Positions 4,866 through 34,662 of a DNA stretch of 64,000 nt are shown piece by piece; positions within the stretch are counted from its first letter, which is position 1, and every line of letters starts with the position of its first letter. The DNA is taken from the NCBI RefSeq assembly GCF_004324755.1, contig NZ_SDMQ01000015.1:1-64000 (forward strand). Direction: 5' to 3'. Made by a program: the position numbers and the translations under genes. The notes beneath the pieces were generated by a model. The model was not told where the DNA came from. It saw nothing but the letters and a program-made list of their open reading frames with translations, and did not search any database. Source of the DNA: Propioniciclava sinopodophylli. Its GTDB lineage: Bacteria; Actinomycetota; Actinomycetes; Propionibacteriales; Propionibacteriaceae.

Positions 4866-4961
4866 GACGATCGAAGACCGCAATTTCCCGCTGAAAGCTG
4901 CTGGTCAGAGGCTCGGCCTTCCCCCGAGTTGCAGTCTGATCAATCCCACGCGCCCTCTTGT

Positions 4962-4979
4962 CATGCAAACGTTTGCATG
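4962..4979. promoter_or_regulatory. LacI-type operator, perfect 18-bp palindrome
   Basis: CATGCAAACGTTTGCATG is perfectly symmetric around a central CG, the usual form of LacI/GalR operators. It lies 64 bases upstream of the symporter start at 5043. The LacI regulator that ends this operon (11645) is the obvious candidate to bind it. I did not see a second copy. Confidence 0.7.
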
Positions 4980-5042
4980 CGACGGTTCCCCACCAACGCC
5001 CCCTGCACGGACGCCTGGGGGGCCAACGCAAGGGAGGGAACC

Positions 5043-16403: not shown

Positions 16404-16578
16404 GGGGGCTCATCCCCCCTCGCTGAGGCCCAGGCCGTCCAGGTGTAGGCGTCGCGGCGCTGGTACAGGACGCCGCGGTCATCCATGAGGCGGACGAGCC
16501 ACGGTTGCCCCTCGCGCGGGGCGCTTGCCTGCCTCGCCTAGAATGGCGACGGGTCGCGATATGTCGTTAGGAGACACC

Positions 16579-17112: not shown

Positions 17113-17144
17113 CGCCACTCGCCCCCGACCGACGCGGAGCACGC

Positions 17145-18833: not shown

Positions 18834-18834
18834 G

Positions 18835-18888
18835 GGCCTCGCACCGCGGAGGCCGCCGCCAGGAACCCGGATGAAACTCGCGGGTTCC
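18835..18888 (+). terminator. Two tandem hairpins after the UbiB gene
   Basis: GGCCTC/GAGGCC (18835-18854, 8-base loop) and GGAACCCG/CGGGTTCC (18862-18888) follow the stop codon directly. Neither has a T-run, which is usual in GC-rich actinobacteria. They probably end the padR-ubiB transcript. Confidence 0.5.
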
Positions 18889-18933
18889 GGCGTTGGGGAG
18901 GAGGACAGCGCACCTCGACGACGAAGGATCAGC

Positions 18934-19416
18934 ATGCCGACCCTGTACGACTTCACCGCCACGACCATCACCGGCCAGGAGCGCAACCTGGCCGACTACC
19001 GCGGGAACGTCGTGCTCGTCGTGAACACCGCGTCCAAGTGCGGCTTGGCGCCCCAGTTCGCCGGGTTGGAGGAGCTGTACAAACGGCACGCCGACGCCGG
19101 CCTCGTCGTGCTGGGGTTCCCGAGCGACCAGTTCATGAATCAGGAGTTCGGCGACGACGCGCAGATCGCCGAGCACTGTCAGCTCAACTACGGGGTCTCG
19201 TTCCCGATGTTCTCCAAGGTGGACGTCAACGGCAAGGGCGCCCACCCGGTGTTCCAGTGGCTGCGCAAGGAGACCGGCGGCCTGCTGGGCGACGCGATCA
19301 AGTGGAACTTCACCAAGTTCCTCGTCGACCGCGAGGGTCGCGTCGTGCGGCGGTACGCGCCCACCGTCGAGCCCGCGCAGATCGAGGCCGACCTCGTGAA
19401 GGCGCTCGCGGGCTGA
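18934..19416 (+). CDS. Glutathione/thioredoxin peroxidase (GPx family)
   Basis: A 160-aa single-domain thiol peroxidase, the usual bacterial GPx length. The peroxidatic residue is C36 in NTASKCGLAPQF, a cysteine rather than selenocysteine. The Gln and Trp-Asn of the active site are in FPSDQFMNQEF and KWNFTKFLVD. Actinobacteria generally lack glutathione, so thioredoxin or mycothiol systems probably reduce it. RBS AAGGA. It stands alone behind the hairpins of the upstream operon. Confidence 0.9.
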   Translation: MPTLYDFTATTITGQERNLADYRGNVVLVVNTASKCGLAPQFAGLEELYKRHADAGLVVLGFPSDQFMNQEFGDDAQIAEHCQLNYGVSFPMFSKVDVNGKGAHPVFQWLRKETGGLLGDAIKWNFTKFLVDREGRVVRRYAPTVEPAQIEADLVKALAG

Positions 19417-19469
19417 TCACAGGGGAGACGCCTGAGCTGGCGCTATCGTCGCGTAGCAGTCTCCGCGGG

Positions 19470-19783
19470 GTCAGAGGCCCATCGCTGCACGGAGTTGGCG
19501 GTGAAGTCGGGTCGCGTCAGCCCCGCCGACGCGGCCAAGACGCTGGTGGCATTCGCCAACGCGGACGGCGGGACGCTGCTCGTCGGCATCCATGACGGCG
19601 AGGTGGACGGGGTCTCTCGTCGTGCGCGTGGACCCCGGAGACCACGTGCGCACGCTCACCAATGGCCAGTGCCTGCTCCGCATCGGGGACGAGTGCCGCC
19701 GCCTCGGCACGGCACAGCACCAGGAGCTCTTGTTCGACCGCGGTGCGGCGCCGTCTGACTCGACCGCCGTGCCCGACCTCACC
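19470..19783 (+). pseudogene. Remnant of an AlbA_2 (Schlafen AAA_4-like) DNA-binding regulator
   Basis: One frame gives ADAAKTLVAFANADGGTLLV followed by GIHDGEVDGV. A second frame, from ~19618, gives VVRVDPGDHVRTLTNGQCLL, RIGDECRRLG and QELLFDRG. These are the start and end of the AlbA_2 domain found in divergent AAA-4 transcriptional regulators. The middle of the domain is missing and the frame changes at the join, so this is a deletion derivative. No C-terminal wHTH or ATPase part follows. Confidence 0.65.
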
Positions 19784-19813
19784 ACCTACTGCAACATTGA
19801 TGTTGCAGTAGGT
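19784..19813. repeat. Perfect 30-bp palindrome
   Basis: ACCTACTGCAACAT, spacer TG, then ATGTTGCAGTAGGT: two perfect 14-base arms. It sits exactly between the AlbA_2 and sbcD remnants. It could be an orphan operator of a repressor-type regulator, or the end of a lost mobile element. Confidence 0.7.
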
Positions 19814-19814
19814 C

Positions 19815-20164
19815 CCGGCCTCAGTCATCGACGTGCCCATTACCTCGGCCAAACGGCTGCGGACGGTCACCGGCACCGTGGCGGAGCTCCGCAAGCTGGC
19901 TGGCGATCTGGGCGACGACTATCTACGCGTGGTCGTGAAGGAACCAACCCGGGCGGGACTACGCGACGAGGTGGTCGAGGCCCTTCCCAACACGCTGGAG
20001 ATCCGTATCGACCCCGCGTTCATCAAGGCCGGACCAACTCCCCCTCCGCTCATGTCGGCAAGTCGCCGCGCGAGCTGTTCGCCACCTACTGCGAGCAGGT
20101 CGGCATCGACGATGCCCGGGTCGCCGCCTTGTTCGATGATCTCTACGACGAGAGCACGAGGTAA
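19815..20164 (+). pseudogene. sbcD: sbcD remnant (exonuclease SbcCD nuclease subunit, C-terminal part)
   Basis: The reading VPITSAKRLRTVTGTVAELR continues through DDYLRVVVKEPTRAGLRDEV and ALPNTLEIRIDPAF, the capping domain of SbcD. The frame then shifts at a run of five C (20040-20044) into GKSPRELFATYCEQVG and FDDLYDESTR before TAA. The entire phosphoesterase domain that should precede it is missing. The stop lies just before the sbcC start, the normal sbcD-sbcC order. The 3' shift may be a homopolymer error, but the loss of the 5' half is real. Confidence 0.75.
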
Positions 20165-20167
20165 GCC

Positions 20168-22550
20168 ATGCGCCCGGTTCGCCTGGAGATGGAGGGCTTC
20201 GCCTCCTTCCGTTCCGCTACCACGGTCGACTTCATGGAGGCCGACTACTTCGCGCTCGTCGGGCCCACCGGCTCGGGCAAGTCAACGGTAATCGACGCCA
20301 TGGTGTTCGCTCTCTATGGCACCGCTCCCCGCTGGGGTCGTTTGAACGCCATCGCGAACGCCTTGGCGCCCACCTCAACCAAGGGCACCGTACGACTCGT
20401 ATTCGACGTCGGTACGCGCCGCTATCAGATCGCTCGCGAGGTATGTCGCGTCGGCAGTGCGGGTGAAGTGCTGCAGAAGGGTGCATTCCTCGAGCGATTC
20501 CTGGACCCCTCAGCAACGAGCGTGAAGAGTGACGAGGTACAGACGGTCGCCGCTGAGCTGCTTGAGGTCAAGAGCGCGGTCGAACAGCTGGTCGGTCTAG
20601 ACCTCAAGCAGTTCACCCAAGCAGTGGTTCTCCCGCAGGGACGCTTTGCGGAGTTCCTGAGTGCCAAGTCGTCAGACCGTCAGGACATCTTGCTCAAGCT
20701 GCTCGGCGCGGACCGGTACGAACGGGTGCACAAGGCCGCCGCCGAGCGCCAACGGGACGCTGAGGCGCAGGCCGCCCAAGTTGCGGCATTGCTGGAGGAG
20801 ACCGGCACCGCCACGCCGGCTGTCGAGCACGAGTCCGTCGCGCGTGTGGCTGAGCTGAAGGCTCTTCACGCCGAGGTCGAGCATGGGCTCGAGGCCTTGG
20901 CCGTACTCCGCTCCACTGCTCATGAAGCGGAGGGTCGTCGACAGCATCTGGAGGACAGGGCAGCCACGCTCGGCGGCGTCGAGGCGCCGACAGGGGTCGC
21001 CGACCTCGGTGTGCGGGCCGAATCACTGGCGCGCTCGTTGGCCGAGGCCCGCGAGGCCGAGTCGGTGGCCGTCGAGGCGTCGGACGCCGCCCGGGAGGCG
21101 CTGGAGGCCTTGGGGGCACGAGGCGCTTGGGAGAGGCTGCGCGATTAGTGGAAGGAGTCGACGTCGCTCGCCGATAGTCTGCCCGGGCTCCGGGAGACCG
21201 CCGAGGCGGCTCGGGCAGAGGTCGCCCGCACCGAGGCCGAGCGCGAGCGGGCTGACCTAGCCGCCCGGGCAGGCGACCAGACTGCCGAGCAGGCGGAGGT
21301 CGCCCAGAACGAGGCTCAGGCTGCCCTTGCCGAGGCGCAGCAGCGCCGCGCGGGCCCTCGTGGCCGTCACCCGACCCGATGGCGTGGGTGAGCTGGCCGG
21401 CAAGATGCACCAGGCGGCAGCCGCGCTCACGAGGGCCGAAGCGAAGCTCACCGACGCCGAACGGGCCGACGATGAGGCCCGGGCTGGGCGGGTTCAGGCC
21501 GGCGACGCCGCAGAGACGCGCCAGTCGCTCGGGTTGCTGCAGCAGCGGGCGTCCGTGGTGGAGGAGATCGGACGCCTCGCGGTAGAGCGCGACGCCGCCG
21601 GCGCGCAGCTGGCCGCACGGCAGACCGCCCTGGACGCCGCCCAGCGTGTCCTCGACGAGGCGGCCCAGCACGTGCACGCCGCGCAGGCGGCCGGTCTGGC
21701 CGCCGACCTCCGGACACAACTCACCGTGGGCGAGGACTGTCCCGTGTGTGACCGGCGCGTCGACGCACTGCCCGCCACTCTCGATGCGCTCGACCTCGCA
21801 CCGGCCAGAGCGGCGGAGTTGGACGCGCGGGCCGCCGTCAAGGCGGCGGACCGAAGCGTGCGCGAGGCCGACAGACTCGCCACGCATCTGGCGGCCCAGC
21901 TCGCAGGAAGCCACCGCACGCTGGAGGATCTCGAGCGCTCGCTCGCCGACGCCCATCCCGGGGCCGACCTCGCGTCCCTCGCGTCGTTCCTCGCTGACCG
22001 CCTTGGCGGCATCGCCGCTGCGGAGGGGCGCGCTTCCGAGACGGACGCCGCCCTCAAGGTCGCCCGTAGGGAGCGCGGGGAAGCCCAGGCACGGGTAACC
22101 GAACTCCGGGCGTCGTACGATGCCGGGTGGCGACAGTTCCGCGTTAAGCGTGCGGGCCTGCTGGCGTGGGGGTGCCCGACAGACGAGCCGGCAGACCTCG
22201 TCGAAGCGTGGGGCGTCCTCGCCGACTGGGTCGGCCAGGAGGTCGGGCGAGTCGACAACGACACCCTCCCCGCGCTCGCGGCGCGATCGGAGGAAACTGC
22301 CGAGGCGCTCGGCGCTGCAACCGACCTCGCCCGGCTGGGGCGCGAACGTCGCCGGGAGGCCGAGGCGGCAGCTACACAGGCCGCCCGGGTGGACACCAGT
22401 GCGTCCGACAGCGTAGCCCGAGCCGAGGCGCGGTCCCTGGCGCTCGGCACCCTGCCCACCGAACAGGCTGATGCGGACGCGGTGGCCGACGCGCTGGAGC
22501 GACTGTCCGCCGCGGAGGCTACGGGAAAGGAGGCGCGCGAAAGGCTGGCT
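20168..22550 (+). pseudogene. sbcC: sbcC pseudogene (exonuclease SbcCD ATPase subunit)
   Basis: The N-terminal ATPase half is clear: ALVGPTGSGKSTVIDAMVFA (Walker A), then QFTQAVVLPQGRFAEFL (Q-loop region) and a long coiled coil. An in-frame TAG at 21146-21148 stops it after 326 aa. The same frame continues as coiled coil until ~21345, where a one-base shift leads into a second coiled coil with the zinc-hook CPVC (~21745-21760). Coiled coil ends near 22550, and the C-terminal lobe with signature and Walker B is absent. With sbcD also broken, this strain lacks SbcCD from this locus. Confidence 0.85.
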
Positions 22551-22865
22551 GACCCGCAGGTCGCCGGCCGCCACGGCCTCGGCCCACTCCCGAGCGCCGG
22601 TCGCGAGCGCGAGCCAGGTGACGGCATCCGTCTCCACGACGTTCGGTGGGGTGCCACGGGTGTGGGTGGGCCTTCGATGCACTGGACGGCGCCGAACGGG
22701 TGCACGCGCACCTCGACGCTGCGGCCCGGGGCGCGCGCGCCGAGCTCCTCGAGGGTGAAGCGCACGGCCGTGGCGAGTGTGGTGCGGTCGACGGCATCCG
22801 GATCGAAGAGCCACGCGGTGAGTGCTGACTCACCCGCGGCGGGGTCGGTGCGGCGGGGGAGGCAT
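22550..22865 (-). pseudogene. Sterol carrier family protein remnant
   Basis: Leftward readings in neighbouring frames give TDPAAGESALTAWL, AVRFTLEELGARAPGRSVEV, HPFGAVQCIEG, then THTRGTPPNVVETDAVTWLA and WAEAVAAGDLRVS. This is the order of a small actinobacterial sterol-carrier family protein. Frame changes occur at a G5 run (22855-22859) and near 22665. The last residues are replaced by the tail of sbcC at ~22550, so a deletion has fused the 3' ends of two convergent genes. Confidence 0.65.
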
Positions 22866-22875
22866 GGTGCCGACG

Positions 22876-23520
22876 CTACCCGCGAGGACTGACGTGCAGG
22901 GCGACGAAGGTGTCGACGGCCCGCTCGGCGTGGTCGCGGATCTCGTCGGCCACGGGCGGGCGATCGCCGAGGAGGACACGGATCTGGGTGTCACGCACGA
23001 CGAGCCCGAAGAAGGTTCGGTAGGCCTCGCCGGGGTCGGGGACACGGAGGATGCGGTGTTTGTCGAGGTGCGCCAGGTATCGCTCGACGACCGGGCCGAT
23101 ACGTTGCCGGCCCGACTGGAGCAGCCGATCGGACAACGCGGCTGACGTCATGGCCGCCCGGTTGAGCGACACCGACGGTTCGCTGGTCAGCAGCCGCAGA
23201 AGCGACTCGGCGTAGTTGGCAAGAGTGTCGCGCGCGTCGTCCACGGTTGTGGCGTCGGCCGCGAGAGCTGCCTCGACGCGCTGCGCGGAGTCGTCGGCGG
23301 TCGCCTCGATCACGGCGCCGATGAGGTCATCGCGGGTGCCGAACCAGGCGTACAGAGTCTCCTTCGAGGCGCCCGCGCGGCGAGCCACACCCTCCATCGT
23401 CAGGCCGGCGGCGTCACGCTCGACGAGTTCGTCTCGGGCCGCCACGATCACCTCCGCACGACGACGCTCGCGAAGCTCTCGCGGCAGACGGCCACGGCGG
23501 GGGGCGGATGACGTGCTCAC
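22876..23520 (-). CDS. TetR-family transcriptional regulator
   Basis: A 214-aa regulator with an N-terminal TetR helix-turn-helix (LTMEGVARRAGASKETLYAW, ~residues 39-58) and a helical ligand-binding domain. I start at GTG 23520; the longer reading from 23565 would overlap the divergent promoter. It is divergent from a DUF1772 membrane protein. The 67-base gap holds an inverted repeat likely to be its operator, so the membrane protein is its probable target. Confidence 0.87.
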   Translation of the reverse strand: MSTSSAPRRGRLPRELRERRRAEVIVAARDELVERDAAGLTMEGVARRAGASKETLYAWFGTRDDLIGAVIEATADDSAQRVEAALAADATTVDDARDTLANYAESLLRLLTSEPSVSLNRAAMTSAALSDRLLQSGRQRIGPVVERYLAHLDKHRILRVPDPGEAYRTFFGLVVRDTQIRVLLGDRPPVADEIRDHAERAVDTFVALHVSPRG

Positions 23521-23539
23521 TTGACAAATGTACCCGAAC

Positions 23540-23561
23540 GTACGGATAGTCTTTTCCGTAC
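23540..23561. promoter_or_regulatory. TetR operator candidate between divergent genes
   Basis: GTACGGA and TCCGTAC form a perfect 7-base inverted repeat with an 8-base spacer (ATAGTCTT region written 23547-23554). A TTGACA hexamer at 23521-23526 points rightward just upstream. Binding here would control both tetR and the DUF1772 gene. Confidence 0.6.
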
Positions 23562-23587
23562 CCAACCGTTCGCTTAAGGAGTGTCCC

Positions 23588-24193
23588 GTGCGTCGACCCC
23601 CTCTCCTCGTCCTGACCTCGCTCGTCGCCCTCGTGCTGACCGGCGCGATCTTCGGCTTCTTCTACGCCTGGGTCTGCTCGACCATGTGGGGCCTGGACGA
23701 CGCCGACCCGCGCGTGGCGATCGCGGCGATGCAGGCCATGAACGCCTCCGTGCGCAACGCCGTCTTCTTCCCGGCGTTCTTCCTCACCCCGGTCGCCTTG
23801 TGCGTCGCCGCGGGTGTCGCGCACCGGTACCGCCATCGGGCATCGGCCGCGTTGTTCCTCGCCGCGGCGGGCATTTACACGCTCGGCGGGCTGCTGTTGA
23901 CCATGGCGATCAACGTGCCGATGAACGAAACCCTGGGCGCGATGGCGGTTCCGGAGTCCCGGGAGGCCGCTGCACTCATCTGGGCCGACTACTCGGGCCG
24001 CTGGCAGCGCTGGAACATCACGCGAACGGTGGCCAGCGGCACCAGCCTCGTGCTCGCGACGCTGGCCATCCTTGCCCTGCGGACGTCCTCGACCGACAAG
24101 GGCCTCGGCGAGGCCGCGGCCCACGTTTCTGCGCCTCACGTGACTGCGGCTCACAGGACTGCGGCACCCGATGGCGTGGCCCGGGTCCACTGA
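23588..24193 (+). CDS. DUF1772-domain membrane protein
   Basis: A 201-aa protein with four predicted helices (~residues 7-27, 62-80, 88-110 and 158-178), the layout of DUF1772 (anthrone-oxygenase-like) proteins. NMNASVRNAVFF-like and INVPMNETLGAM segments are typical, as is the Trp/Arg-rich WADYSGRWQRWNITRT. Function in bacteria is poorly known. GTG 23588 follows AAGGAG. Its divergent TetR neighbour suggests inducible expression, perhaps against a toxic small molecule. The low-complexity tail rich in His/Ala is unusual. Confidence 0.75.
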   Translation: MRRPPLLVLTSLVALVLTGAIFGFFYAWVCSTMWGLDDADPRVAIAAMQAMNASVRNAVFFPAFFLTPVALCVAAGVAHRYRHRASAALFLAAAGIYTLGGLLLTMAINVPMNETLGAMAVPESREAAALIWADYSGRWQRWNITRTVASGTSLVLATLAILALRTSSTDKGLGEAAAHVSAPHVTAAHRTAAPDGVARVH

Positions 24194-24620
24194 TGCTCGA
24201 GTTCCTCGTGGCGTCAGTCATCGTCGTGGCCTCCCCAGGCCCAGGTGCGACGTTCACCATCGCCACCACCGCGTCGCAGGGCTGGCGCCTCGGGTGGTTC
24301 GCGGCCCTCGGATGCACGCTCGATGTCGCCCCCACCTGATCGTTGCGAGCACCGGCTTGGCCACCGTCCTTCGATCCGGCGGCGCCGCCTTCGAGGTCCT
24401 GCGCTGGGCCGATGTCACCTACCTTGCGTTCCGCGCGATCCAGGCACTGCGGAGCTGCCGCCCTCTCCCGGAGGTCCCGGACTGCGCGGTGGCTGCGCCG
24501 CCCGCGACGGAGCCGACGCTCACGGCATCCGGTGTCCTGCGACGAGCGATCACCATGAACCTGCTCAATCCCAAGCTCACCGTCTTCTTCCTGGCGTTCC
24601 TTCCCCAGTTCGCGGGACGC
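24193..24620 (+). pseudogene. LysE/RhtB exporter pseudogene
   Basis: It begins MLEFLVASVIVVASPGPGAT, the LysE-family N-terminus with its PGP motif. The frame then breaks at a run of five C (24329-24333) and continues as HLIVASTGLATVLRSGGAAF and VLRRAITMNLLNPKLTVFF. Homology stops at about 24615, roughly 60 residues short of a normal LysE, where sequence of a pglZ remnant takes over. The ATG overlaps the DUF1772 stop, so the two were probably co-expressed. Confidence 0.75.
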
Positions 24621-25219
24621 TCGCCGACCTCACCTGCGAACGACTGCGGTACGGACCGATGAAGGCGGGCTACCACGGCGGCGCAGCACCGGCCGAAGTG
24701 GTCGTTCCCGTGGCCGTTTTGGCACCCACCTCCCTGGAGCATGACCTGACGCCCGCGGCTCCGCCCGAGCCGGAGTGGTGGGAGGGTCACGTCCCCGTAG
24801 CGTCCTCGGCTCCGTCTGTGGCGCGTCCCGTCCCGACCAAGATCGCGGCGTCCGCGCAGCCGGACCTGTTCAACGACGTCCCTGAACCGACGCGCGGTCC
24901 CTCGACGACGGCCGCAGACCTGCTGGCCAGCGCCACGTACAAGGTGCAGCGCAAGCTGGTGGGGCGCCTCGCCGTCACCGATGAGGCCGTCCAGCAGCTG
25001 ATCGACGCACTCACACTTGCCCCTGACCACCGGCTTACCGCTGCCCGAGCAGCCGGAACGCTGGGGGTGCCCACCAACAGGGTTCCGATGATGGTCAGCC
25101 AGGTTGCGAAGCTGTTGAACGTCGAGGGCTACCCGGTCGTGTCGAGCGATCCCGCCACCCAGACAGTGGTGCTTGATCCTGCGTTGCTGGCCGAGCAGTA
25201 CGGGGTCCGGCTCGCTTGA
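24621..25219 (+). pseudogene. pglZ: BREX type 2 pglZ remnant (C-terminal part)
   Basis: The open frame reads ERLRYGPMKAGYHGGAAPAE and VVVPVAVLAP, the last conserved block of the PglZ alkaline-phosphatase-like domain. After a Pro-rich linker (PEPEWWEGHV) comes a C-terminal helical domain ending LLNVEGYPVVSSD and VVLDPALLAEQYGV, the style of BREX-2 PglZ C-termini. About 190 codons remain of a gene that should have about 900. The phosphatase core is gone and the 5' side is fused to the LysE remnant. The family call is from memory of BREX-2 proteins and is supported by the brxD start found just downstream. Confidence 0.65.
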
Positions 25220-25311
25220 GATTCCCGCCCTGCAAGAGCGTTCCGGTGAACAATCAGGATCTCTATACTCATCTATGGATTTCCGTTATACGGCTAGATA
25301 GAGTCTGACAC

Positions 25312-26493
25312 ATGGACCCGGTGGAGAACCCCTTCAGGCCAGGCGCTGGTCGCAGGCCGCCCGTCCTTGCCGGTCGGGAGCGCATTCTGTCGAACTTCGA
25401 CGTGGTCGTCCGTCGGGCAGAGAACTACGGCGAGGGCGACCGCAGTTGGGTCATCAACGGACTGCGCGGGGTTGGAAAGACAGTGCTCCTCAACGAGCTG
25501 ATGAGCCAAGCCAACGCACGCAAGTGGATCGTCGCCAAGGTCGAGGCGTCCACGTCCGCACCCCTGCGCCGGGTGCTGGCCACGGAGTTGGTGAAGGCAC
25601 TGCGGACGGCCACAGGCCGCCACGCAGATCGCTCGAAGTGGAAGCGCGTGCTGGGAGTGCTCCGTTCGTTCACATTCAAACTCGGGATCGATGGCATCAC
25701 GTTGGGCATCGACGTGGATCCCGTCCACGGGGTGGCGGACAGTGGAACCTTCGGAGACGACTTGGCAGCCCTGCTGGAGGTCATCGGTGAAGCCTCGCTC
25801 GAGTTCGGCATCGGCACGCTGATCCTGGTGGACGAGTTGCAGGAGGCTGGCACCGACGACCTCGAAGCCGTCAACATGGCAGTCCATTCACTGGGACAGG
25901 CACCCACCCCCCTGCCGGTCTTCTTCGTGGGAGCTGGGCTCCCTTCCCTCCCAGCCCAGCTGGCGGATGCAGCCAGTTACGCGGAACGGCTGTACGTCTA
26001 CCAGCCGATCGGCCTCTTGTCCCCGGACGACGTCCGCACCGCGTTGGTGGAACCCTGCGAACAACGGGGAGTCACCTGGCAAGAGGATGCGCTGGCGGCT
26101 GCGTTCGAACTGGCGCGTGGATACCCCTACTTCGTCCAGTCCATCGGCAAGCACGTCTGGGACCTGGCTGCGGGGCCCGCCTTCACCATGGACGATGTGC
26201 AAGCTGGGGGTGCCTTGGCCCGCGAGGAGATCGATGCCGGCCTGTACAGGTCGCGTTGGGAACGTGCCACGACCGCTCAACGCAGGCTGCTCACAGGGAT
26301 GGCGCACCTGAAGGGGGAGGACCCAGTGGAGATCGGCGAACTCGCGGCTCACCTCGGCAAGGCCAGGACGTCTGACCTGTCGGTCGCCCGACAGGAACTC
26401 ATCAAGAAGGGTTTGGTCTACGCGCCCGAGCGGGGTCTGGTCGCCTTCACCGTCCCCGGAATGGCGGACTTCGTCATCGCCCAGGATGCGTGA
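25312..26493 (+). CDS. AAA-family ATPase (ORC/AAA_16-like) embedded in a BREX-2 relic
   Basis: An intact 393-aa ATPase. Walker A is GLRGVGKT (GKT at 55-57), Walker B is LILVDELQEA (D174-E175), with an arginine-finger-like region before a lid (YPYFVQSIGKHVWDLA). A C-terminal winged helix (~residues 315-385, ELAAHLGKARTSDLSVARQE) follows. Related stand-alone ATPases are widespread in actinobacteria; their role is not settled. It starts 92 bases after the pglZ remnant in an AT-richer stretch with an inverted repeat (CTCTAT/ATAGAG at 25261-25303). Its stop overlaps the brxD reading frame. That tight coupling suggests it belonged to the BREX operon. Confidence 0.75.
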   Translation: MDPVENPFRPGAGRRPPVLAGRERILSNFDVVVRRAENYGEGDRSWVINGLRGVGKTVLLNELMSQANARKWIVAKVEASTSAPLRRVLATELVKALRTATGRHADRSKWKRVLGVLRSFTFKLGIDGITLGIDVDPVHGVADSGTFGDDLAALLEVIGEASLEFGIGTLILVDELQEAGTDDLEAVNMAVHSLGQAPTPLPVFFVGAGLPSLPAQLADAASYAERLYVYQPIGLLSPDDVRTALVEPCEQRGVTWQEDALAAAFELARGYPYFVQSIGKHVWDLAAGPAFTMDDVQAGGALAREEIDAGLYRSRWERATTAQRRLLTGMAHLKGEDPVEIGELAAHLGKARTSDLSVARQELIKKGLVYAPERGLVAFTVPGMADFVIAQDA

Positions 26494-26497
26494 CTGC

Positions 26498-26695
26498 ATG
26501 GAGTCGGTCTCGCCTCGACGGCGTCGCGAGGTCATCGACGCCCTGCGGCGCCGTACCGTGCCCGCCAATGGCTTGGATCTCCTTGCGGTCGGGCTGACCC
26601 CCTTCGAGTCGGCTCTGGGTTCTGATCTGGAGTCGGTCGCCGGTGGCGCGGCTGTCTTCAAGGCCGTCCGCGCACGCACGCACTCGCGTTCGTGA
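26498..26695 (+). pseudogene. brxD: BREX brxD remnant (N-terminal 65 codons)
   Basis: From ATG 26498 the frame reads MESVSPRRRREVIDALRRRT, then VPANGLDLLAVGL and GGAAVFKAVR. This is the characteristic start of BrxD (DUF2791-type P-loop protein), up to just before the GEYGSGKTF Walker region expected next. Instead the frame becomes ARTHSRS and stops. The frame is also open from ATG 26486, which overlaps the ATPase stop. The remaining ~85% of brxD, and the helicase gene that normally follows, are missing. Confidence 0.68.
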
Positions 26696-26847
26696 GCTGC
26701 TGTTCCTTGTCCGAGTGCGGGTGAAGTCGGCACCGATGGGTACGGCGAGCCCTACGTCCGAGTGACGAGCGCTTGGAGGCGCATGCCGACTACATGCGTC
26801 AATGGGCGGAGTGAGATGACCTGGCCACATACGTCCTGTCCGACGGT

Positions 26848-27057
26848 CTACGGCCTCGAGGGCAGCGGGCCGAAGTCTTCCTTCGGCGGCGACATCCGCA
26901 AGAGCGACATCCGCAAGCTGGTGAGCTTCCAGGGCGTGTACGGCTACCGCGACATCGCGGTGCAGTTCTCCCACGCCAACAACGGCAAGACCACTGGCGA
27001 CACCTGCTTCGGCGACTCCGGCGGCCCCACGTTCGACATCTCCACCGATCGCTGCCC
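26848..27057 (+). pseudogene. Trypsin-like (S1) serine protease fragment
   Basis: About 70 codons read YGLEGSGPKSSFGGDIRKSD, VSFQGVYGYRDIAVQFSHAN and GDTCFGDSGGPTFD. GDSGGP is the S1 catalytic-serine motif, here with its neighbouring Cys. His and Asp of the triad and a signal peptide are absent, and the reading fades after TDRC. It is a 3' fragment of a secreted protease. The stretch 26696-26847 before it holds only scraps, for instance a reading ending ERLEAHADYMRQWAE and a stop. Confidence 0.65.
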
Positions 27058-27086
27058 GCACCCACCGCGTCCGCCATCATGGGGAC

Positions 27087-27449
27087 ATGACGATCCTCAA
27101 GATCAACGCCATCACCGTCCCCGCCGACAGCGGCGACGAGCTCGCACACCGCTTCGCCAAGCGCGCCGGCGCCGTCGACGGGCAGGACGGCTTCGAGGGC
27201 TTCGAGCTGCTCAAGCCGCTGGACGCCGACCGTCACGTCTGGCTCGTCCTCACCCGCTGGCGCGACGAGGAGTCCTTCCAGAACTGGATCACCTCGGCCA
27301 ACTTCAAGGGCGCCCACGGCGGCCGCGACACCGAGATCTCCCGCCAGCACAGTGCGTCGGACGCCGGAGGACCCCCGCCCCACGGCGACGCGCGTCCGGT
27401 CGGCGTCAGCGCGGAACTGTGGAGCTACGAGGTCGTCGACCTCACCTGA
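27087..27449 (+). CDS. Antibiotic biosynthesis monooxygenase (ABM) family, MhuD/HmoA-like
   Basis: A 120-aa ferredoxin-like-fold protein: KINAITVPADSGDELAHRFA strand-helix start, GFEGFELLKP, WLVLTRWRDEESFQNWITS and a HGGRDTEISRQHS loop. The size and the NWITSANF region match heme-degrading HmoA/MhuD-type monooxygenases, so release of iron from heme is plausible, although the family is mixed. It stands alone and is the first intact chromosomal gene after the decay zone. Confidence 0.75.
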   Translation: MTILKINAITVPADSGDELAHRFAKRAGAVDGQDGFEGFELLKPLDADRHVWLVLTRWRDEESFQNWITSANFKGAHGGRDTEISRQHSASDAGGPPPHGDARPVGVSAELWSYEVVDLT

Positions 27450-27453
27450 CTCG

Positions 27454-27468
27454 AGGCCCTCTGGGCCT
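27454..27468 (+). terminator. Short hairpin after the ABM gene
   Basis: AGGCCC, loop TCT, GGGCCT, starting four bases after the stop codon. No T-run. It probably separates the ABM gene from the downstream ABC operon promoter. Confidence 0.45.
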
Positions 27469-27505
27469 GCACCGTCGCGTTACCCAACCGTGATGCGGGC
27501 GGATC

Positions 27506-27535
27506 TTGACACCAAGACTGGGAAAGAGCGACTCT
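27506..27535 (+). promoter_or_regulatory. Promoter of the cellobiose-type ABC operon
   Basis: TTGACA at 27506-27511 is a perfect -35 element. GACTCT at 27530-27535, 18 bases on, is a fair -10. The predicted transcript starts just before the two operators at 27550-27596, so repressor binding would block elongation or promoter clearance. Confidence 0.5.
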
Positions 27536-27549
27536 GAGACACATCCCCC

Positions 27550-27596
27550 TGAGAGCGCTCCCATTCCCTCTCAGTCTCTACTGAGAGCGCTCTCAG
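27550..27596. promoter_or_regulatory. Two CebR-like LacI operators
   Basis: TGAGAGCGCTCCCA (27550-27563) and TGAGAGCGCTCTCA (27582-27595; symmetric as CTGAGAGCGCTCTCAG, 27581-27596). The known Streptomyces CebR box is TGGGAGCGCTCCCA; the first site differs from it at one base. Centres are 32 bases apart, about three helical turns. They lie 45-91 bases before the binding-protein start and fit regulation by the LacI protein at 32338. Confidence 0.75.
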
Positions 27597-27640
27597 GATG
27601 ACAGGCGGACCTTCATCCGCACACAAACAAAGGAGTTGCT

Positions 27641-28951
27641 GTGCACAAGTCACGCATTGGGGCCCTCGCGGCGATCAGCGCCCTGGCCATCACCCTGTCC
27701 GCCTGCGGCGGTGCGAACACGGGGTCGACACCGGCCCCCGGCGGAAGCGCTGCGCCCGCGACGTCGGACGAGAAGATCACCCTGACCGTCGCCACCTTCA
27801 ACGAGTTCGGCTACGAGGAGCTCGTCAAGGAGTACACGACGCTCAACCCGAACGTGATCGTCGAGCACAAGAAGGCCGCGACCGCCGACGAGGCGCGCGA
27901 CAACCTGAACACCCGCCTGGCCGCCGGCTCCGGGCTGGCCGACATCGAGGCCATCGAGGTCGACTGGGTGCCCGAGATGATGCAGTACGCCGACAAGTTC
28001 GTCGACCTCAAGGACGACGCCGTCAAGGGTCGCTGGCTCGACTGGAAGGAAGCCGCAGCCACCACGCCCGACGGCAAGCTCATGGGCTACGGCACCGACA
28101 TCGGCCCCGAGGCCATCTGCTACCGCGCCGACATGTTCGAGGCCGCAGGCCTGCCCTCCGACCGCGCCGAGGTCGCCAAGCTGCTCGACGGCGGCTGGGA
28201 CAAGTACTTCACCGTCGGCAAGGACTTCGTCGCCAAGAGCGACGCCGCCTGGTTCGACGCCGCCGACGGCGTGTTCCAGGGCATGATCAACCAGATCGAG
28301 ACACCGTTCGAGAACGCCGACGGCACCCCGATCCCCCTCGGCGAGAACACCGAGATCAAGAAGGTCTACGACCAGGTGATCACCGCCGCGGTCACCGACG
28401 ACCTCTCGGCCGACCTCGCGCAGTGGAGCACCGACTGGTCCACCGCCTTCCAGAACGACGGCTTCGCGACGATGCTCTGCCCGGGCTGGATGCTCGGCGT
28501 GATCGAGGGCAACGCCGAGGGCGTCGAGGGTTGGGACATCGCCGACGTCTTCCCCGGCGGCGGCGGCAACTGGGGCGGCTCGTACCTGACGGTGCCGACC
28601 CAGGGCGCGCACCCTGAGGAGGCCAAGAAGCTGGCCGCGTGGCTGACCGCCCCCGAGCAGCAGCTCAAGGCCTTCGCGTCCAAGGGCACCTTCCCCAGCC
28701 AGAAGGAGGCCCTCGCCTCCCCCGAGCTCCTCAAGTCGACCAACGCGTTCTTCAACGACGCCCCCACCGGCCAGATCCTCACCAACCGCGCCAACGCCGT
28801 CTCGGTGACCCCCTTCAAGGGCCCGAACTACTTCGCGATCCGCGCGCTGACGTCTGACGCCATCAACCGCGCCGACGTCGACAAGACCGACGACCCCGAG
28901 GCCTCCTGGGCCAAGGCCGTCGCAGCCTACGGCGACCTCGGCCTCAGCTGA
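27641..28951 (+). CDS. ABC sugar-binding lipoprotein, CebE-like
   Basis: A 436-aa extracellular solute-binding protein. The signal peptide ends in lipobox LSAC (C22). The mature part follows the family-1 binding-protein pattern: NPNVIVEHKKAATADEARDN, then AAGSGLADIEAIEVDWVPEM and a Trp-rich ligand cleft (GGGGNWGGSY). GTG 27641 follows AAAGGAG. It is followed by two permeases and a GH1 beta-glucosidase and preceded by CebR-like operators, so cellobiose or related beta-glucosides are the expected ligand. No ATPase is encoded here; a shared MsiK-type ATPase elsewhere would be needed. Confidence 0.85.
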   Translation: MHKSRIGALAAISALAITLSACGGANTGSTPAPGGSAAPATSDEKITLTVATFNEFGYEELVKEYTTLNPNVIVEHKKAATADEARDNLNTRLAAGSGLADIEAIEVDWVPEMMQYADKFVDLKDDAVKGRWLDWKEAAATTPDGKLMGYGTDIGPEAICYRADMFEAAGLPSDRAEVAKLLDGGWDKYFTVGKDFVAKSDAAWFDAADGVFQGMINQIETPFENADGTPIPLGENTEIKKVYDQVITAAVTDDLSADLAQWSTDWSTAFQNDGFATMLCPGWMLGVIEGNAEGVEGWDIADVFPGGGGNWGGSYLTVPTQGAHPEEAKKLAAWLTAPEQQLKAFASKGTFPSQKEALASPELLKSTNAFFNDAPTGQILTNRANAVSVTPFKGPNYFAIRALTSDAINRADVDKTDDPEASWAKAVAAYGDLGLS

Positions 28952-28960
28952 CGCACCCTT

Positions 28961-28992
28961 GGCCGACCGGACGCCACGGCGTCCGGTCGGCC
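28961..28992 (+). terminator. Intra-operon hairpin between binding protein and permease
   Basis: GGCCGACCGGACGC, loop CACG, GCGTCCGGTCGGCC: a perfect 14-bp stem nine bases after the binding-protein stop. Placed inside an operon, it probably lowers read-through or protects the upstream mRNA so that the binding protein is made in excess. Confidence 0.65.
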
Positions 28993-29027
28993 CCCACCCG
29001 AACCCACCACGACCGCGAGGAGGCTCG

Positions 29028-29975
29028 ATGTCGAGCACCACAGCGCGCCAGCGGCTGTCCCGCCTGGACGTGCGCCTGTCGCCGTACCTCTACATCAGCC
29101 CCTTCTTCATCCTCTTCGCCGTCGTCGGCCTCTACCCGCTGCTCTACACGGCATTCGTCTCCGTGCACGACTGGCACCTCATCGGCGGCCAGGGGGACTT
29201 CGTCGGCCTGAAGAACTACGTCGACGTCCTGGGACAGCAACGCTTCGGCCGCGCCCTGGGCAACACCTTCTCCATCTTCCTGCTGTCGTCGGTCCCCCAG
29301 GTGATCGCCGCCATCGCGATCGCGGCCCTGCTCGACGCGAACCTGCGCGCGAAGACCTTCTGGCGCATGGGCGTCCTGCTGCCCTACGTGGTGGCGCCGG
29401 TCGCGGTGTCGCTGATCTTCTCCAAGCTCTTCGCCGACCAGTCGGGGTTGGTGAACACGCTCCTGGCCACGATCGGCATCGACCCCATCGGCTTCCACTC
29501 CGACCGGCTCGCGTCGCACCTCGCGATCGCCACCATGGTCAACTTCCGCTGGACCGGCTACAACACCCTGATCTTCCTCGCCGCCATGCAGGCCGTGCCC
29601 CGGGATCTCTACGAGGCCGCGATCGTCGACGGGGCGTCGCGCTGGCGCCAGTTCTGGTCGGTCACCGTCCCGATGCTGCGCGCCACGATCATCTTCGTGG
29701 TCATCACCTCCACCATCGGCGGTCTGCAGATCTTCGACGAACCCCGCATGTACGACACGCTCGGCCTTGGCGGGTCGGACCGGCAGTGGATGACGATGAC
29801 CATGTATCTCTACGAGCTCGGCTGGGGGGCGCAGAAGAGCTTCGGCCGTGCAGCCGCCGTCGCCTGGATCCTCTTCGGGATCATCATCGTGATCGGCATG
29901 GTCAACTTCCTGCTCACCCAACGCATCGCCTCCGGGGACGCGCCCCGGCGAGTCCGCAAGGGGGCCCGCGCATGA
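29028..29975 (+). CDS. ABC sugar transporter permease, CebF-like
   Basis: A 315-aa MalF-type inner-membrane permease with six helices. The EAA loop is EAAIVDGASRWRQFWSVTVP (~residues 195-214), which docks the ATPase. ATG 29028 follows GAGGAGG. It overlaps the second permease by four bases. Confidence 0.85.
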   Translation: MSSTTARQRLSRLDVRLSPYLYISPFFILFAVVGLYPLLYTAFVSVHDWHLIGGQGDFVGLKNYVDVLGQQRFGRALGNTFSIFLLSSVPQVIAAIAIAALLDANLRAKTFWRMGVLLPYVVAPVAVSLIFSKLFADQSGLVNTLLATIGIDPIGFHSDRLASHLAIATMVNFRWTGYNTLIFLAAMQAVPRDLYEAAIVDGASRWRQFWSVTVPMLRATIIFVVITSTIGGLQIFDEPRMYDTLGLGGSDRQWMTMTMYLYELGWGAQKSFGRAAAVAWILFGIIIVIGMVNFLLTQRIASGDAPRRVRKGARA

Positions 29976-30910
29976 ACTCCGTCGCCGCCATCGAACAGAC
30001 CGCCGGGCGCGGTGCCGCCCGCGCCGCCCGCCGTCGGTTGAACCGACCGCAGCCCGGGGCGTCAGGGAGCAGCACCGCGTGGGGCGCCGACCGCCGCCCG
30101 TCGTGGCTGTCCTACGTGCTGCTCGGCCTGGTCCTGCTGATCTCGGCCTACCCGCTGTGGTTCGCGGTGCTGCTGGCCAGTTCGGACGCCGCGACCATCG
30201 CCCGCAACCCGATCCCGTCGCTGATCCCCCAGGGCCGGCTGCTGGAGAACATCGGCCTGGTCATCTCCTCCGACATCAACTTCTGGCCGGCGCTGTGGAA
30301 CTCGATCCTCGTCGCCGTGATCACCTCGGCGTCGGTCGTGATCTTCTCCACCCTGGCCGGCTACTCGTTCGCCAAGCTGAACTTCCGCGGCCGCGGGCCG
30401 CTGCTGGTGTTCGTCATCGCCACCATGGCCGTGCCGACCCAGCTGGGCATCGTGCCGCTGTTCATCGTGATGTCGAAGCTGGGCTGGATCGGCCAACTGC
30501 AGGCCGTCATCGTGCCCGGCATGGTCACCGCGTTCGGGGTGTTCTGGATGACCCAGTACCTCCGCGACGCCCTGCCCTACGAACTGATCGAGGCGGCACG
30601 GGTGGACGGCTGCTCGATGATTCGCACGTTCTGGCACGTCGCGCTGCCCGCCGCCCGCCCGGCCGCCGCGATGCTGGCCCTGTTCACCTTCGTCGGCTCG
30701 TGGACCAACTTCTTCTGGCCCTTCATCGTGCTGGGTCCCACGAACCCGACGCTGCCCGTGGCGCTGCAACTGCTGCAGGCGTCGTACTTCAAGGACTACT
30801 CGCTGATCATGGCGGGCGTCGTGGTGGCCACGATCCCGCTGCTGCTGGTCTTCGTCGTCGCTGGCCGACACCTCGTCGCCGGCATTATGCAAGGAGCTGT
30901 CAAGGGATGA
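29972..30910 (+). CDS. ABC sugar transporter permease, CebG-like
   Basis: A 312-aa MalG-type permease. A ~45-residue Arg/Ala-rich cytoplasmic N-terminus precedes six helices. The EAA loop is EAARVDGCSMIRTFWHVALP. Start and stop overlap neighbouring genes by four bases each (ATGA), showing translational coupling with the first permease and the beta-glucosidase. Confidence 0.85.
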   Translation: MNSVAAIEQTAGRGAARAARRRLNRPQPGASGSSTAWGADRRPSWLSYVLLGLVLLISAYPLWFAVLLASSDAATIARNPIPSLIPQGRLLENIGLVISSDINFWPALWNSILVAVITSASVVIFSTLAGYSFAKLNFRGRGPLLVFVIATMAVPTQLGIVPLFIVMSKLGWIGQLQAVIVPGMVTAFGVFWMTQYLRDALPYELIEAARVDGCSMIRTFWHVALPAARPAAAMLALFTFVGSWTNFFWPFIVLGPTNPTLPVALQLLQASYFKDYSLIMAGVVVATIPLLLVFVVAGRHLVAGIMQGAVKG

Positions 30911-32328
30911 CCGAACTCACCTTCCCGCCCTCGTTCTCGTGGGGCACCGCCACCGCGGCCTACCAGATCGAGGGAGCCCGCCACGAGGGTGGCCGCCGCG
31001 ACTCGATCTGGGACACCTTCGCCCACACCCCCGGCGCGGTGGTGAACGGCGACACCGGTGACGTCACCTGCGACCACTACCACCGCATGCCCTCCGACGT
31101 CGCGTTGATGGCCTCGCTCGGCCTCGACACGTACCGGTTCTCGGTGTCGTGGGCGCGTGTGTGCCCCGACGGCCGGACCCCCAACCCGGAAGGCCTCGAC
31201 TTCTACGACCGCCTCGTCGACGAGCTCGTCGGGCGCGGCATCCGACCGTGGCTGACGCTCTACCACTGGGACCTCCCCCAGGCCCTCCAGGACCGGGGCG
31301 GCTGGACGAACCGCGACACGGCGTCGGCGTTCGCCGAGTACGCCGGCACGGTGCTGGAACGACTCGGCGACCGCGTGCCCGTCTGGACCACGCTCAACGA
31401 GCCGTGGTGCTCGTCGTTCCTGTCCTACGCGGCCGGCGAGCACGCGCCCGGCCACACTTCCCCGACCGAGGCCGTGGACGCCGCCCACCACCTGTTGCTG
31501 GGCCACGGCCTCGCCGTGCAGCGGATCCGCGCCGACCGACCCGACGTCACCGTCGGTATCACCACCAACCACACCGTCGCCGAGCCGGCCGACCCGTCGA
31601 ACCCGGCCGACGTCGACGCCGCCCGCCGCATCGACGGCGCGTTCAACCGCGTGTTCCTCGACCCCCTGTTCCGGGGCGAGTACCCCGCGGACGTGCTCGA
31701 GGACATGGCGGAGGCGGGGCTGGGGCGCGCAGCCCGTGACGGCGACTTCGCGGTCATCTCGTCGCCGATCGACGTGCTGGGCGTGAACTACTACAACGGT
31801 GCGGCCGTCGCCGGCGCTGTGCCGGGGGACGAGTCGCCCCTGGTGTTCGCCGGCCCGGGTGAGCTGCCCCGGCGCAGCCCCTACGTGGGCTCGGAACGCG
31901 TGCGGTTCGTCCCGCGCGGGCTGCCCGTCACCGCGATGGGGTGGGAGGTGCAGCCCGAAGGCCTCACCCGTCTGCTCGTCCGGCTGCAGGAGGAGTACAC
32001 CGGTCCCGCCGGCGTCCGTCTGCACGTCACGGAGAACGGCGCCGCCTACGACGACGTGCCGGACGCCGCGGGCTTCGTCGACGACACCCACACCCGCCGC
32101 GCGTACGTGCGCGACCACCTCGCCGCGGTGCACGCCGCGATCGAGGCTGGCGCCGCCGTGGACGGGTACATGGTGTGGTCGATGCTGGACAACTTCGAGT
32201 GGGCGTGGGGGCTGGCCAAACGGTTCGGTATCGTTCGGGTCGACTTCGACACGCTCCAGCGGACCCCCAAGGCGTCCGCACTCTGGTACGCCGAGGTCGC
32301 ACGGTCGGGAAGCGTCACCCTCGACTGA
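30907..32328 (+). CDS. GH1 beta-glucosidase, BglC-like
   Basis: A 473-aa family-1 glycoside hydrolase of normal length. It has the N-terminal signature FPPSFSWGTATAAYQIEG, acid/base E165 in TLNEPW and nucleophile E376 in VTENGA, plus YMVWSMLDNFEWAWG near the end, which shapes the sugar site. No signal peptide, so it acts on imported cellobiose or aryl/alkyl beta-glucosides in the cytoplasm. It is translationally coupled to the upstream permease. Confidence 0.9.
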   Translation: MTELTFPPSFSWGTATAAYQIEGARHEGGRRDSIWDTFAHTPGAVVNGDTGDVTCDHYHRMPSDVALMASLGLDTYRFSVSWARVCPDGRTPNPEGLDFYDRLVDELVGRGIRPWLTLYHWDLPQALQDRGGWTNRDTASAFAEYAGTVLERLGDRVPVWTTLNEPWCSSFLSYAAGEHAPGHTSPTEAVDAAHHLLLGHGLAVQRIRADRPDVTVGITTNHTVAEPADPSNPADVDAARRIDGAFNRVFLDPLFRGEYPADVLEDMAEAGLGRAARDGDFAVISSPIDVLGVNYYNGAAVAGAVPGDESPLVFAGPGELPRRSPYVGSERVRFVPRGLPVTAMGWEVQPEGLTRLLVRLQEEYTGPAGVRLHVTENGAAYDDVPDAAGFVDDTHTRRAYVRDHLAAVHAAIEAGAAVDGYMVWSMLDNFEWAWGLAKRFGIVRVDFDTLQRTPKASALWYAEVARSGSVTLD

Positions 32329-32337
32329 GGAGGCGAG

Positions 32338-33351
32338 GTGGACGACGTGCGGTCACGCACCACGTTGGAGGACGTCGCGCGCGTGGCGGGGGTGTCCCGC
32401 GCCACGGCGTCCCGGGCCGTGCGCGGCGGCGAACTGGTGAGCCCCGTCGCCCTCGAGGCGGTACGCCGGGCGGTCGAGCAGCTCGGGTACGTGCCCAACC
32501 CGGCCGCCCGCAGCCTCGTCACCCGGCAGACCGACACCCTGGCCGTGGTCGTCCCCGAGGACGACGCCCGCGTGTTCTCCGACCCCTTCATCGCGCAGGC
32601 CATCGGCGGGGTCGCCGAGGCGCTGGCCCACACCCCGAAGCAGCTCGTCCTGCTCATGCGCGCCCGCGGCCAGGAGAACGATCGCCTGCTGCCCTACCTG
32701 CGCGGCGGGCATGTCGACGGGATCGTGGTGCTCTCCCACCACCGCGACGACCACCTCGAACGCGAACTCGCCGCCTTGCACCTGCCGCTCGCCTTCATCG
32801 GACGTCCCCTCGAGCCCCAACTGGCCGTGCCGTACGTCGACGTCGACAACGTCGCCGGCGGACGCCTCGCCGCTGAGCACCTGCTCGCCGCGGGCGCGCG
32901 TAGGCTCGCCACCATCAGTGGCCCACTGGACATGCCGGCCGCTGTCGACCGCATCACCGGGTGGTCGGAGGCCCTGGCCGAGGCCGGCGTCACCGAGGTC
33001 GCCCGGTACGAGGGCGACTTCACCCTGGTGCGCGGCGAGGAACTCGGCGCGCGGCTGCTGGCCGAACACCCGGAGGTGGACGGCGTCTTCGCCGCCAACG
33101 ACCTCACCGCCGCCGGCGTGCTGCACGCGGCCCGCGCCGCCGGGCGCTCGGTCCCCAGGACCCTGCGCCTGGTCGGGTACGACGACACCCAGCTCGGCCT
33201 GACGACCCACCCGCAGCTCACCTCGATCACCAACCCCGGGCGCGACCTCGCCCGCCGGGCCACGCGCATGGTGCTCGACCAGCTCGCCGGGCAGCCCGCG
33301 CCGCCTCCGATCATCATCACGCCCGTCCTCGTGGAGCGGGCCTCGGGCTGA
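32338..33351 (+). CDS. LacI-family repressor, CebR-like
   Basis: A 337-aa regulator. HTH: TTLEDVARVAGVSRATASRA; hinge GYVPNPAARSLV; then a ligand-binding domain (LAVVVPEDDARVFSDPF). It is the last gene of the operon, eight bases after the beta-glucosidase, with RBS GAGGAGG. In Streptomyces, CebR represses cebEFG-bglC until cellobiose is present; gene content and operator match here, so the same logic is likely. Confidence 0.83.
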   Translation: MDDVRSRTTLEDVARVAGVSRATASRAVRGGELVSPVALEAVRRAVEQLGYVPNPAARSLVTRQTDTLAVVVPEDDARVFSDPFIAQAIGGVAEALAHTPKQLVLLMRARGQENDRLLPYLRGGHVDGIVVLSHHRDDHLERELAALHLPLAFIGRPLEPQLAVPYVDVDNVAGGRLAAEHLLAAGARRLATISGPLDMPAAVDRITGWSEALAEAGVTEVARYEGDFTLVRGEELGARLLAEHPEVDGVFAANDLTAAGVLHAARAAGRSVPRTLRLVGYDDTQLGLTTHPQLTSITNPGRDLARRATRMVLDQLAGQPAPPPIIITPVLVERASG

Positions 33352-33376
33352 CGGGCCCAACTGGCAGGCTGTGCCC

Positions 33377-34624: not shown

Positions 34625-34662
34625 CGTCCCGCCGGCCACGATGGCCCACGTACGCTGGATCC

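Follow-up and report, generated by a model that had tools for sequence, protein, structure and literature searches.

Type 2 bacteriophage exclusion (BREX) systems, also referred to as Pgl, comprise PglW, PglX, PglY/BrxC, PglZ, BrxD and BrxHI; in the part of a recent survey drawn on here, brxD and brxHI are treated as a linked pair and auxiliary nucleases are reported across BREX types (Rakesh and Krishnan, 2026; PMC12839542). Additional genes are also found within BREX loci. Of 9,000 genomes, about 7,000 were reported to have genes between pglZ and pglX, BrxU and PARIS being among the commonest known systems; PARIS occurs within the island of Salmonella D23580, and BrxU is found in E. fergusonii (PMC11341690). 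A two-gene ATPase/DUF4435 region was placed between pglX and pglZ in the type 1 BREX locus of Salmonella LT2 (PMC9009780). In the 64,000-nucleotide stretch of Propioniciclava sinopodophylli contig NZ_SDMQ01000015.1 analyzed here (positions 1 to 64,000; the window), fragments of pglZ and brxD appear in the order of a type 2 operon, with an intact ATPase gene between them. Unlike a type 2 system as described, this locus contains two truncated core genes and an extra ATPase at the pglZ-brxD junction, and the other four of the six core genes were not found. The region from 24636 to 26672 very probably represents what is left of a type 2 BREX operon at an orthologous chromosomal site. In the literature searched on embedded BREX genes and degenerate Pgl loci, supplements aside, neither a type 2 slot between pglZ and brxD nor this ATPase was seen to be described, which does not prove that no such description exists.

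In the following, coordinates given without a label refer to the window, G000 denotes the genome to which it belongs, and G001 and G004 denote genomes of the same genus. The initial annotation of the stretch had recognized some 190 3' codons of pglZ and the first 65 codons of brxD, in operon order and orientation, and profile searches with both frames bore this out. Positions 24632-25216 matched the BREX-2 PglZ model NF033446 (E 2.3e-48) over profile positions 694-890 of 890, with a score of 165 bits that lies below the 200-bit cut-off set for full-length proteins, and matched the PADLOC BREX-2 PglZ model (E 1.3e-49) over positions 705-908 of 910, that is, at the C-terminal end only. A Pfam scan returned no match for the pglZ piece, and the Pfam PglZ domain PF08665 gave zero matches in G000. 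Positions 26486-26692 matched two BrxD models at their N-terminal ends only (E 6.2e-19, profile 1-59; E 3.3e-17, profile 1-55), the latter with 62.7 bits, below its 350-bit full-length cut-off, as well as Pfam BrxC_BrxD (E 1.6e-13), above the 22.2-bit cut-off of that family. At the DNA level, homology to the intact pglZ of G001 starts at 24636 and homology of the brxD piece to that genome ends at 26672, covering 62 codons. Neither a complete PglZ phosphatase nor a complete BrxD ATPase is thus encoded, given that pglZ is reduced to roughly its last 194 codons out of 896 and brxD to codons 1-62.

The nature of the two fragments is clear from G001, in which pglW, pglX, pglY, pglZ, the ATPase gene, brxD and brxHI follow one another, with pglZ and brxD arranged as in the window. 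The proteins of this operon, which spans about 18.9 kb (129,917-148,797), gave strong matches to the respective models (PglW, E 0; PglX, E 0; BrxC/PglY, 2.7e-245; PglZ, 1.8e-238; BrxD, 4.9e-203; BrxHI, 1.1e-293), where the PglY query corresponded to the C-terminal 815 amino acids, the pglY frame upstream of it being open and continuous. Positions 24636-26672 are 98.7% identical to the G001 operon across 2,037 bp, roughly a ninth of its length, and the flanking sequences are collinear with G001 at 16520-19503 (97.3%) and 27457-34633 (97.9%), with further blocks reaching to 14736. Because of this match and these flanks, the site can be taken as orthologous, and because a genome of the same genus carries the complete operon there, the fragments, found in operon order, are best considered as a relic of it. 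The suggestion that the lineage once carried BREX-2 and lost it hence agrees with the comparison of syntenic loci. The possibility that the two frames are complete, unrelated genes was rejected, since the parent genes are present in G001.

The initial annotation had also stated that the rest of both genes and of the system is missing. PglZ and BrxD each gave one match in G000, corresponding to the relic fragments, with no second copy. Neither PglW nor BrxHI was found in this genome beyond generic similarity, with two kinase-domain matches, the best at 32%, for the former and eight matches, the best at 43% over a helicase segment, for the latter. PglX and PglY were likewise not found, the G001 proteins (for PglY, the C-terminal 815 amino acids) giving zero matches in G000; these empty searches had no positive control of their own, a point that counts against the claimed loss, although tblastn with those queries did find relatives. 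The statement accordingly stands for pglW, pglX, pglY and brxHI, although it had overlooked that the operon's ATPase gene is intact. BREX cannot work in this genome. In itself, the relic is a clearly documented case of ordinary gene loss.

The overlooked open reading frame (ORF) lies between the pglZ and brxD pieces, inside the same block homologous to G001. Its product belongs to AAA_16 (E 9.6e-12; 46.1 bits where the cut-off is 32.6) and also matches AAA_22 (29.8 bits, cut-off 27). By contrast, it does not reach the threshold of the BrxC/BrxD family PF10923 (16.5 as opposed to 22.2 bits) nor does it confidently match a PADLOC defence family, the best match being PDC-S01 (45 residues, E 0.0098). 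Inspection by eye recognized Walker A and B motifs. RuvB models matched the C-terminal part far below their cut-offs (E 0.0025 and 0.028), and this part may form a winged helix. A sequence search of solved structures yielded two weak matches (E 0.035 and 0.093). The ATPase is 99% identical to the copy in the corresponding position of G001 and 80-82% identical to those in G004, G049 and G212. When the first ATG is taken as the brxD start, the end of the ATPase gene overlaps brxD in both the window and G001.

The 45 bases preceding the ATPase start codon are conserved in fixed register across the family. Conservation in 37 family copies, reduced to 31 once near-identical leaders were removed, was set against that in 2,000 draws taken at random within these upstream regions. 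The 26 distant copies (<50% identity) reached 28.2 bits, as compared to a null mean of 9.5 and maximum of 12.4, and the five near copies (>=50%, that of the window included) reached 57.8 bits, as compared to at most 39.4. In the distant group, the pattern reads TCTAGG, seven bases, CTAGA, and then ATAC.GT ending 6 nucleotides from the start; in the near group, it reads TTATAAGG ... TTATACG, followed by GATAG..T ending 7 nucleotides from the start. Inverted-repeat scores of the leaders averaged 11.7, relative to 8.0 for shuffled sequences. These features point to a putative leaderless promoter with an operator before the ATPase gene. Separately, stand-alone ATPase genes, such as those at L041 and L050, are preceded by a perfect inverted repeat, CAATCTAGG-N6-CCTAGATTG, at about -41 to -18 from the start. 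The gene is widespread among actinobacteria, and the repeat has the appearance of an operator.

Whether the ATPase gene has been retained or simply not yet lost was considered by comparing the relic with G001 under one counting rule for the relic and its flanks. The ATPase gene differs at 6 of 1,182 bases (3 synonymous, 3 nonsynonymous), the pglZ piece at 12 of 582 (6 and 6) and the brxD piece at 6 of 186 (1 and 5). Taking all differences together, the ATPase gene has changed less than the fragments (6/1182 vs. 18/769; Fisher p 5e-4), as is the case when nonsynonymous changes per site are considered (3/876 vs. 11/555; p 0.004). Three intact flank genes, with nonsynonymous changes at 17/2430, differ from the fragments (p 0.011) and not from the ATPase (p 0.31); a fourth, beta-glucosidase-like flank gene was left out, its frame being doubtful. 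With two outgroups for reference, a reading of the resulting table suggests that, of the amino acid changes, 8 of the 11 in the pglZ and brxD pieces (about 256 codons), as well as 2 of the 3 in the ATPase (393 codons), are derived in the window lineage. One change in the brxD fragment, G23R, falls at a column that is invariant in 11 BrxD sequences. On balance, these comparisons lean towards selection having preserved the ATPase since the loss of BREX.

Several observations weigh against such retention and against a self-sufficient gene. The numbers of changes are small, and a cruder counting rule had given 4 vs. 13 nonsynonymous changes, such that the uniform recount is the weaker contrast. 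Synonymous divergence of the ATPase gene is itself lowish (3/306, relative to 26/834 in the flank genes, p 0.054, and 7/213 in the two fragments, p 0.10), so that a recent recombination event, or chance, might look like constraint, and the contrast is not purely one of selection at the protein level. A generic sigma-70 scan detected no promoter site at the ATPase gene, and the dyad test failed for the window's own leader, which scored below its shuffled versions. Finally, AlphaFold2, run on the window ATPase plus L095 (listed in Table 1), yielded a predicted local distance difference test score of 45.6 and a predicted template modelling score of 0.31, too poor to use. It is hence possible, if rather unlikely, that the locus reflects pure decay, with the ATPase being the last piece of the operon not yet hit and neither expressed nor selected. 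With the divergence from G001 being recent (about 2%), a non-functional 1.2-kb gene could have stayed open by chance; the empty promoter scan and a nonsynonymous contrast of 3 vs. 11 changes fit this as well. The overall deficit of changes in the ATPase gene, its Walker motifs and a leader conserved across the family instead favor retention.

Examination of the pglZ-brxD junction in other genomes places the ATPase in a wider setting. In a general survey, at least 389 BrxD relatives were confirmed, of which 80 were examined. The spacing between pglZ and brxD was <=135 bp in 72 of these, >=700 bp in seven and unreadable in one, with six of the seven wide junctions apparently belonging to Propionibacteriaceae. 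A scan of 198 Propionibacteriaceae genomes gave 22 matches, from which G000, two broken pieces of G159 (C560 and C492) and three weak matches (E > 1e-4) were excluded, leaving 16 loci in which both pglZ and brxD were readable, completeness of the operon being no criterion; nine loci are common to the scan and the survey. Cargo was found in 10 of the 16 (G001, G004 twice, G048, G049, G063, G120, G125, G143 and G212) and not in the other six (G028 twice, G034, G051, G127 and G159:C607), as compared to 1 of the 70 readable loci of the survey that apparently lie outside the family. The Fisher value for this contrast (2.3e-8) ignores relatedness and is only indicative. Four of the 16 loci (G001, G004, G049 and G212) carry the ATPase, and the remaining contents are varied (Table 1). 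As such, the pglZ-brxD junction in Propionibacteriaceae is a predicted cargo slot for varied defence-like or toxin-antitoxin-like genes. This resembles the embedded genes of type 1 BREX in the sources cited above, where other genes, some of them for defence, lie within the operon or island, and differs in concerning type 2, in its position at the pglZ-brxD junction and in its contents, namely, the ATPase, SoFic, HEPN-SNF2 with a TmtA-like protein, PIN with a ribbon-helix-helix (RHH) partner, PDC-M07 and a helix-turn-helix (HTH) trio.

That trio, found in two Tessaracoccus genomes, consists of ORFs of 162 amino acids, of 152 amino acids (an HTH_3 protein) and of 158 or 202 amino acids. Of five ORFs scanned, only the HTH proteins matched a family, and the trio is possibly a new toxin-antitoxin-like set. 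G004 holds two loci with cargo. In one (C99), the slot contains the ATPase. In the other (C98; L061 13733-18261), pglZ lacks approximately its first 174 codons, an open SoFic gene occupies the slot and brxD runs off the contig; no match to pglW, pglX or pglY was found in the 13.7 kb before pglZ. This truncated locus with open cargo hints that survival of cargo may not be a single case. Elsewhere, the excluded piece G159:C560 (L218, about 4774-5835) is a degraded BREX-2 segment in which the start of brxD is fused to the end of brxHI.

Relatives of the ATPase are not confined to BREX loci. Matches were obtained in 84 of 116 genomes searched, G000 included, many at 40-47% identity over the full length, and in 117 of 72,556 plasmid records. 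Among the 25 plasmid matches listed of these 117, identity ranged from about 40 to 61%, the best being from Mycobacterium gordonae (61%) and Rhodococcus (about 53%). One of 50,697 phage records contained a relative (41%), and of 159 pattern stretches in viral contigs, none coded for one. No BREX gene was seen within about 1.5 kb on either side of 26 relatives of about 41-47% identity, and none was annotated in six plasmid contexts (41-61%), where the ATPase gene is solitary among varied neighbors, some nuclease- or transposase-like. Judged by such neighborhoods, the ATPase family does not depend on BREX. The window ATPase shows full-length similarity to actinobacterial genes annotated as AAA_16 or 'ATP-binding protein', although it sits in a BREX-2 remnant and is closer to the best plasmid copies, those from Mycobacterium and Rhodococcus (about 53-61%), than to non-BREX chromosomal copies (<=47%). 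At 15 chromosomal loci (about 41-47%), inspected by eye, neighbors were varied and several were recognizably housekeeping genes; a defence role is therefore not indicated for the family as a whole, a further point to be set against the reading of the gene proposed below. For the copies in the slot, such a role is plausible only by the company they keep.

These surveys bear on the idea that the ATPase is a BREX-2 component, such as a helicase loader or regulator for brxD-brxHI, with no role once BREX is gone. Its position between pglZ and brxD, the overlap of its end with the brxD start and its recurrence in the slot of four family loci would be expected of such a component. The idea is nonetheless unlikely, in that six of the 16 family loci and 69 of the 70 readable loci elsewhere have no cargo at the junction, unrelated genes fill the same slot in other genomes, and no BREX gene was seen within about 1.5 kb of the 26 relatives or annotated in the six plasmid contexts.

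Our best guess is that the ATPase gene is autonomous, that it has an accessory or defence role and that it survived the loss of BREX. A BREX type 2 operon very probably stood at this site in the common ancestor of G000 and G001. As the comparison with G001 shows, the portion from pglW through most of pglZ, and that from brxD codon 63 through brxHI, have gone, with unrelated DNA now in their place; a 2.0-kb block is left, made up of the pglZ tail, the brxD head and, between them, the ATPase gene preceded by its conserved leader. The ATPase gene was cargo of the predicted pglZ-brxD slot. It would be autonomous, with a promoter of its own that is probably leaderless, and might regulate itself via its putative C-terminal winged helix. 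Beside BREX, it would serve as an accessory ATPase; alone, it would have a role of its own, possibly as a sensor of foreign DNA. In its fullest form, which is speculative and rather unlikely, the proposal would have this AAA+ winged-helix gene be autonomous and regulate itself, belong to a so far undescribed anti-invader family of mobile single genes, travel in a modular cargo slot of the BREX-2 operons of Propionibacteriaceae and still be working after BREX was destroyed.

The edges of the relic are less simple than first proposed. According to the initial annotation, BREX-2 was lost through two or more deletions, of which one brought a LysE gene up against pglZ. At 24635/24636, a fragment of such a gene (E 7.9e-11 for Pfam LysE, covering profile positions 40-128 of 193) does abut pglZ, and the open frame upstream of 24636 overlaps this broken gene in a different frame. 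Nevertheless, the LysE fragment is unmatched in the 120-170 kb region of G001, and the 5.1 kb to the left of the relic (19504-24635), containing parts of a gene that also occurs in G007 (89-91%), an SbcC-like frame, TetR and LysE, shares only a 31-bp match with that region. On the right, 784 bp are without a match in the same region, where G001 has about 4.2 kb, before homology resumes at 27457. The nearest copies of parts of both stretches lie elsewhere and are more diverged (G006, 68-75%; G001, the ABM gene, 84%). In the right-hand stretch, the fragment at 26762-27060 had no Pfam match, and the ABM monooxygenase gene at 27087-27449 is intact (Pfam ABM, E 7e-16). Its G001 homologue, 84% identical, lies at 560.6 kb, 430 kb away, and the window gene has therefore moved or come from elsewhere. 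Because both edges adjoin DNA not at that place in G001, each is best read as a replacement, or a deletion plus acquisition, and no simple deletion between former neighbors. Rfam gave zero matches at 23500-28000 and ARAGORN detected zero tRNAs in the whole window; there is therefore no sign of a tRNA-anchored island.

It is very unlikely that the block of pglZ tail, ATPase and brxD head was instead imported as a cassette by recombination, with no BREX ever lost at this site: the ATPase family is mobile, occurring on plasmids and in the slot of several family genomes, whereas the block occupies the place of the G001 operon, between collinear flanks, and matches it about as closely as the flanks do. 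An assembly artefact, with chimeric joins at 24635/24636 and 26672/26673, is the least credible explanation, since, despite the draft state of G000 (43 contigs), block and flanks lie together on one 66.6-kb contig and the missing genes were not found elsewhere in an assembly listed as 100% complete.

As to the left-hand DNA itself, positions 19504-23565, which separate the relic from a gene that by eye resembles glutathione peroxidase, look decayed: the gene of the G007 type is in two pieces, with about 116 bp lost between them, and the SbcC-like frame (AAA_23 match) stops early; a TetR gene is present there as well. A 28-base palindrome-like string near 19783 proved not to be a perfect palindrome.

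Table 1. Features of the window and gene content of pglZ-brxD slots in other genomes.
Feature	Location	Coordinates	Strand	Remarks
Broken LysE-family gene	Window	24193..24635	+	Frameshift, 3' end cut; abuts pglZ; absent at G001 place
pglZ 3' fragment	Window	24636..25219	+	About codon 703 of the 896-codon G001 ORF to stop; ~194 codons
Conserved ATPase leader	Window	25267..25311	+	TTATACG block, then TAGAGT (TANNNT-like) 7 nucleotides before ATG
Intact AAA ATPase gene	Window	25312..26493	+	393 amino acids; AAA_16; weak RuvB-like C-terminal match
brxD 5' fragment	Window	26486..26672	+	First 62 codons of 445 in G001
Putative replacement DNA for rest of brxD and brxHI	Window	26673..27456	+	Fragment, then ABM monooxygenase gene
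Slot cargo	L095			ATPase
Slot cargo	L094			SoFic, PADLOC E 5.9e-110
Slot cargo	L096			HEPN-SNF2 helicase resembling DrmD, plus TmtA-like (Tiamat-like) protein
Slot cargo	L100			PIN protein with FitA-like RHH partner
Slot cargo	L097, Tessaracoccus	5554-6995		Three small ORFs
Slot cargo	L101, Tessaracoccus	5544-6992		Three small ORFs
Slot cargo	L173, Streptomyces	3938-6829		GmrSD_N protein, opposite strand; second frame with CBS-domain match
Slot cargo	G125			PDC-M07A/B pair

Defence systems are gained and lost quickly, and in the present case comparison with a complete relative allows a recent loss to be followed at the level of single bases. Beyond gene loss, it is the slot and the surviving, self-contained ATPase that deserve note. 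In Propionibacteriaceae, the joint between pglZ and brxD-brxHI receives exchangeable extra genes, several of which match defence families, and may be a place to look for new ones; the ATPase, whose leader is conserved along with it, is a concrete and testable candidate. Were the proposal made here to prove true, the loss of a large defence system could leave a small one behind.

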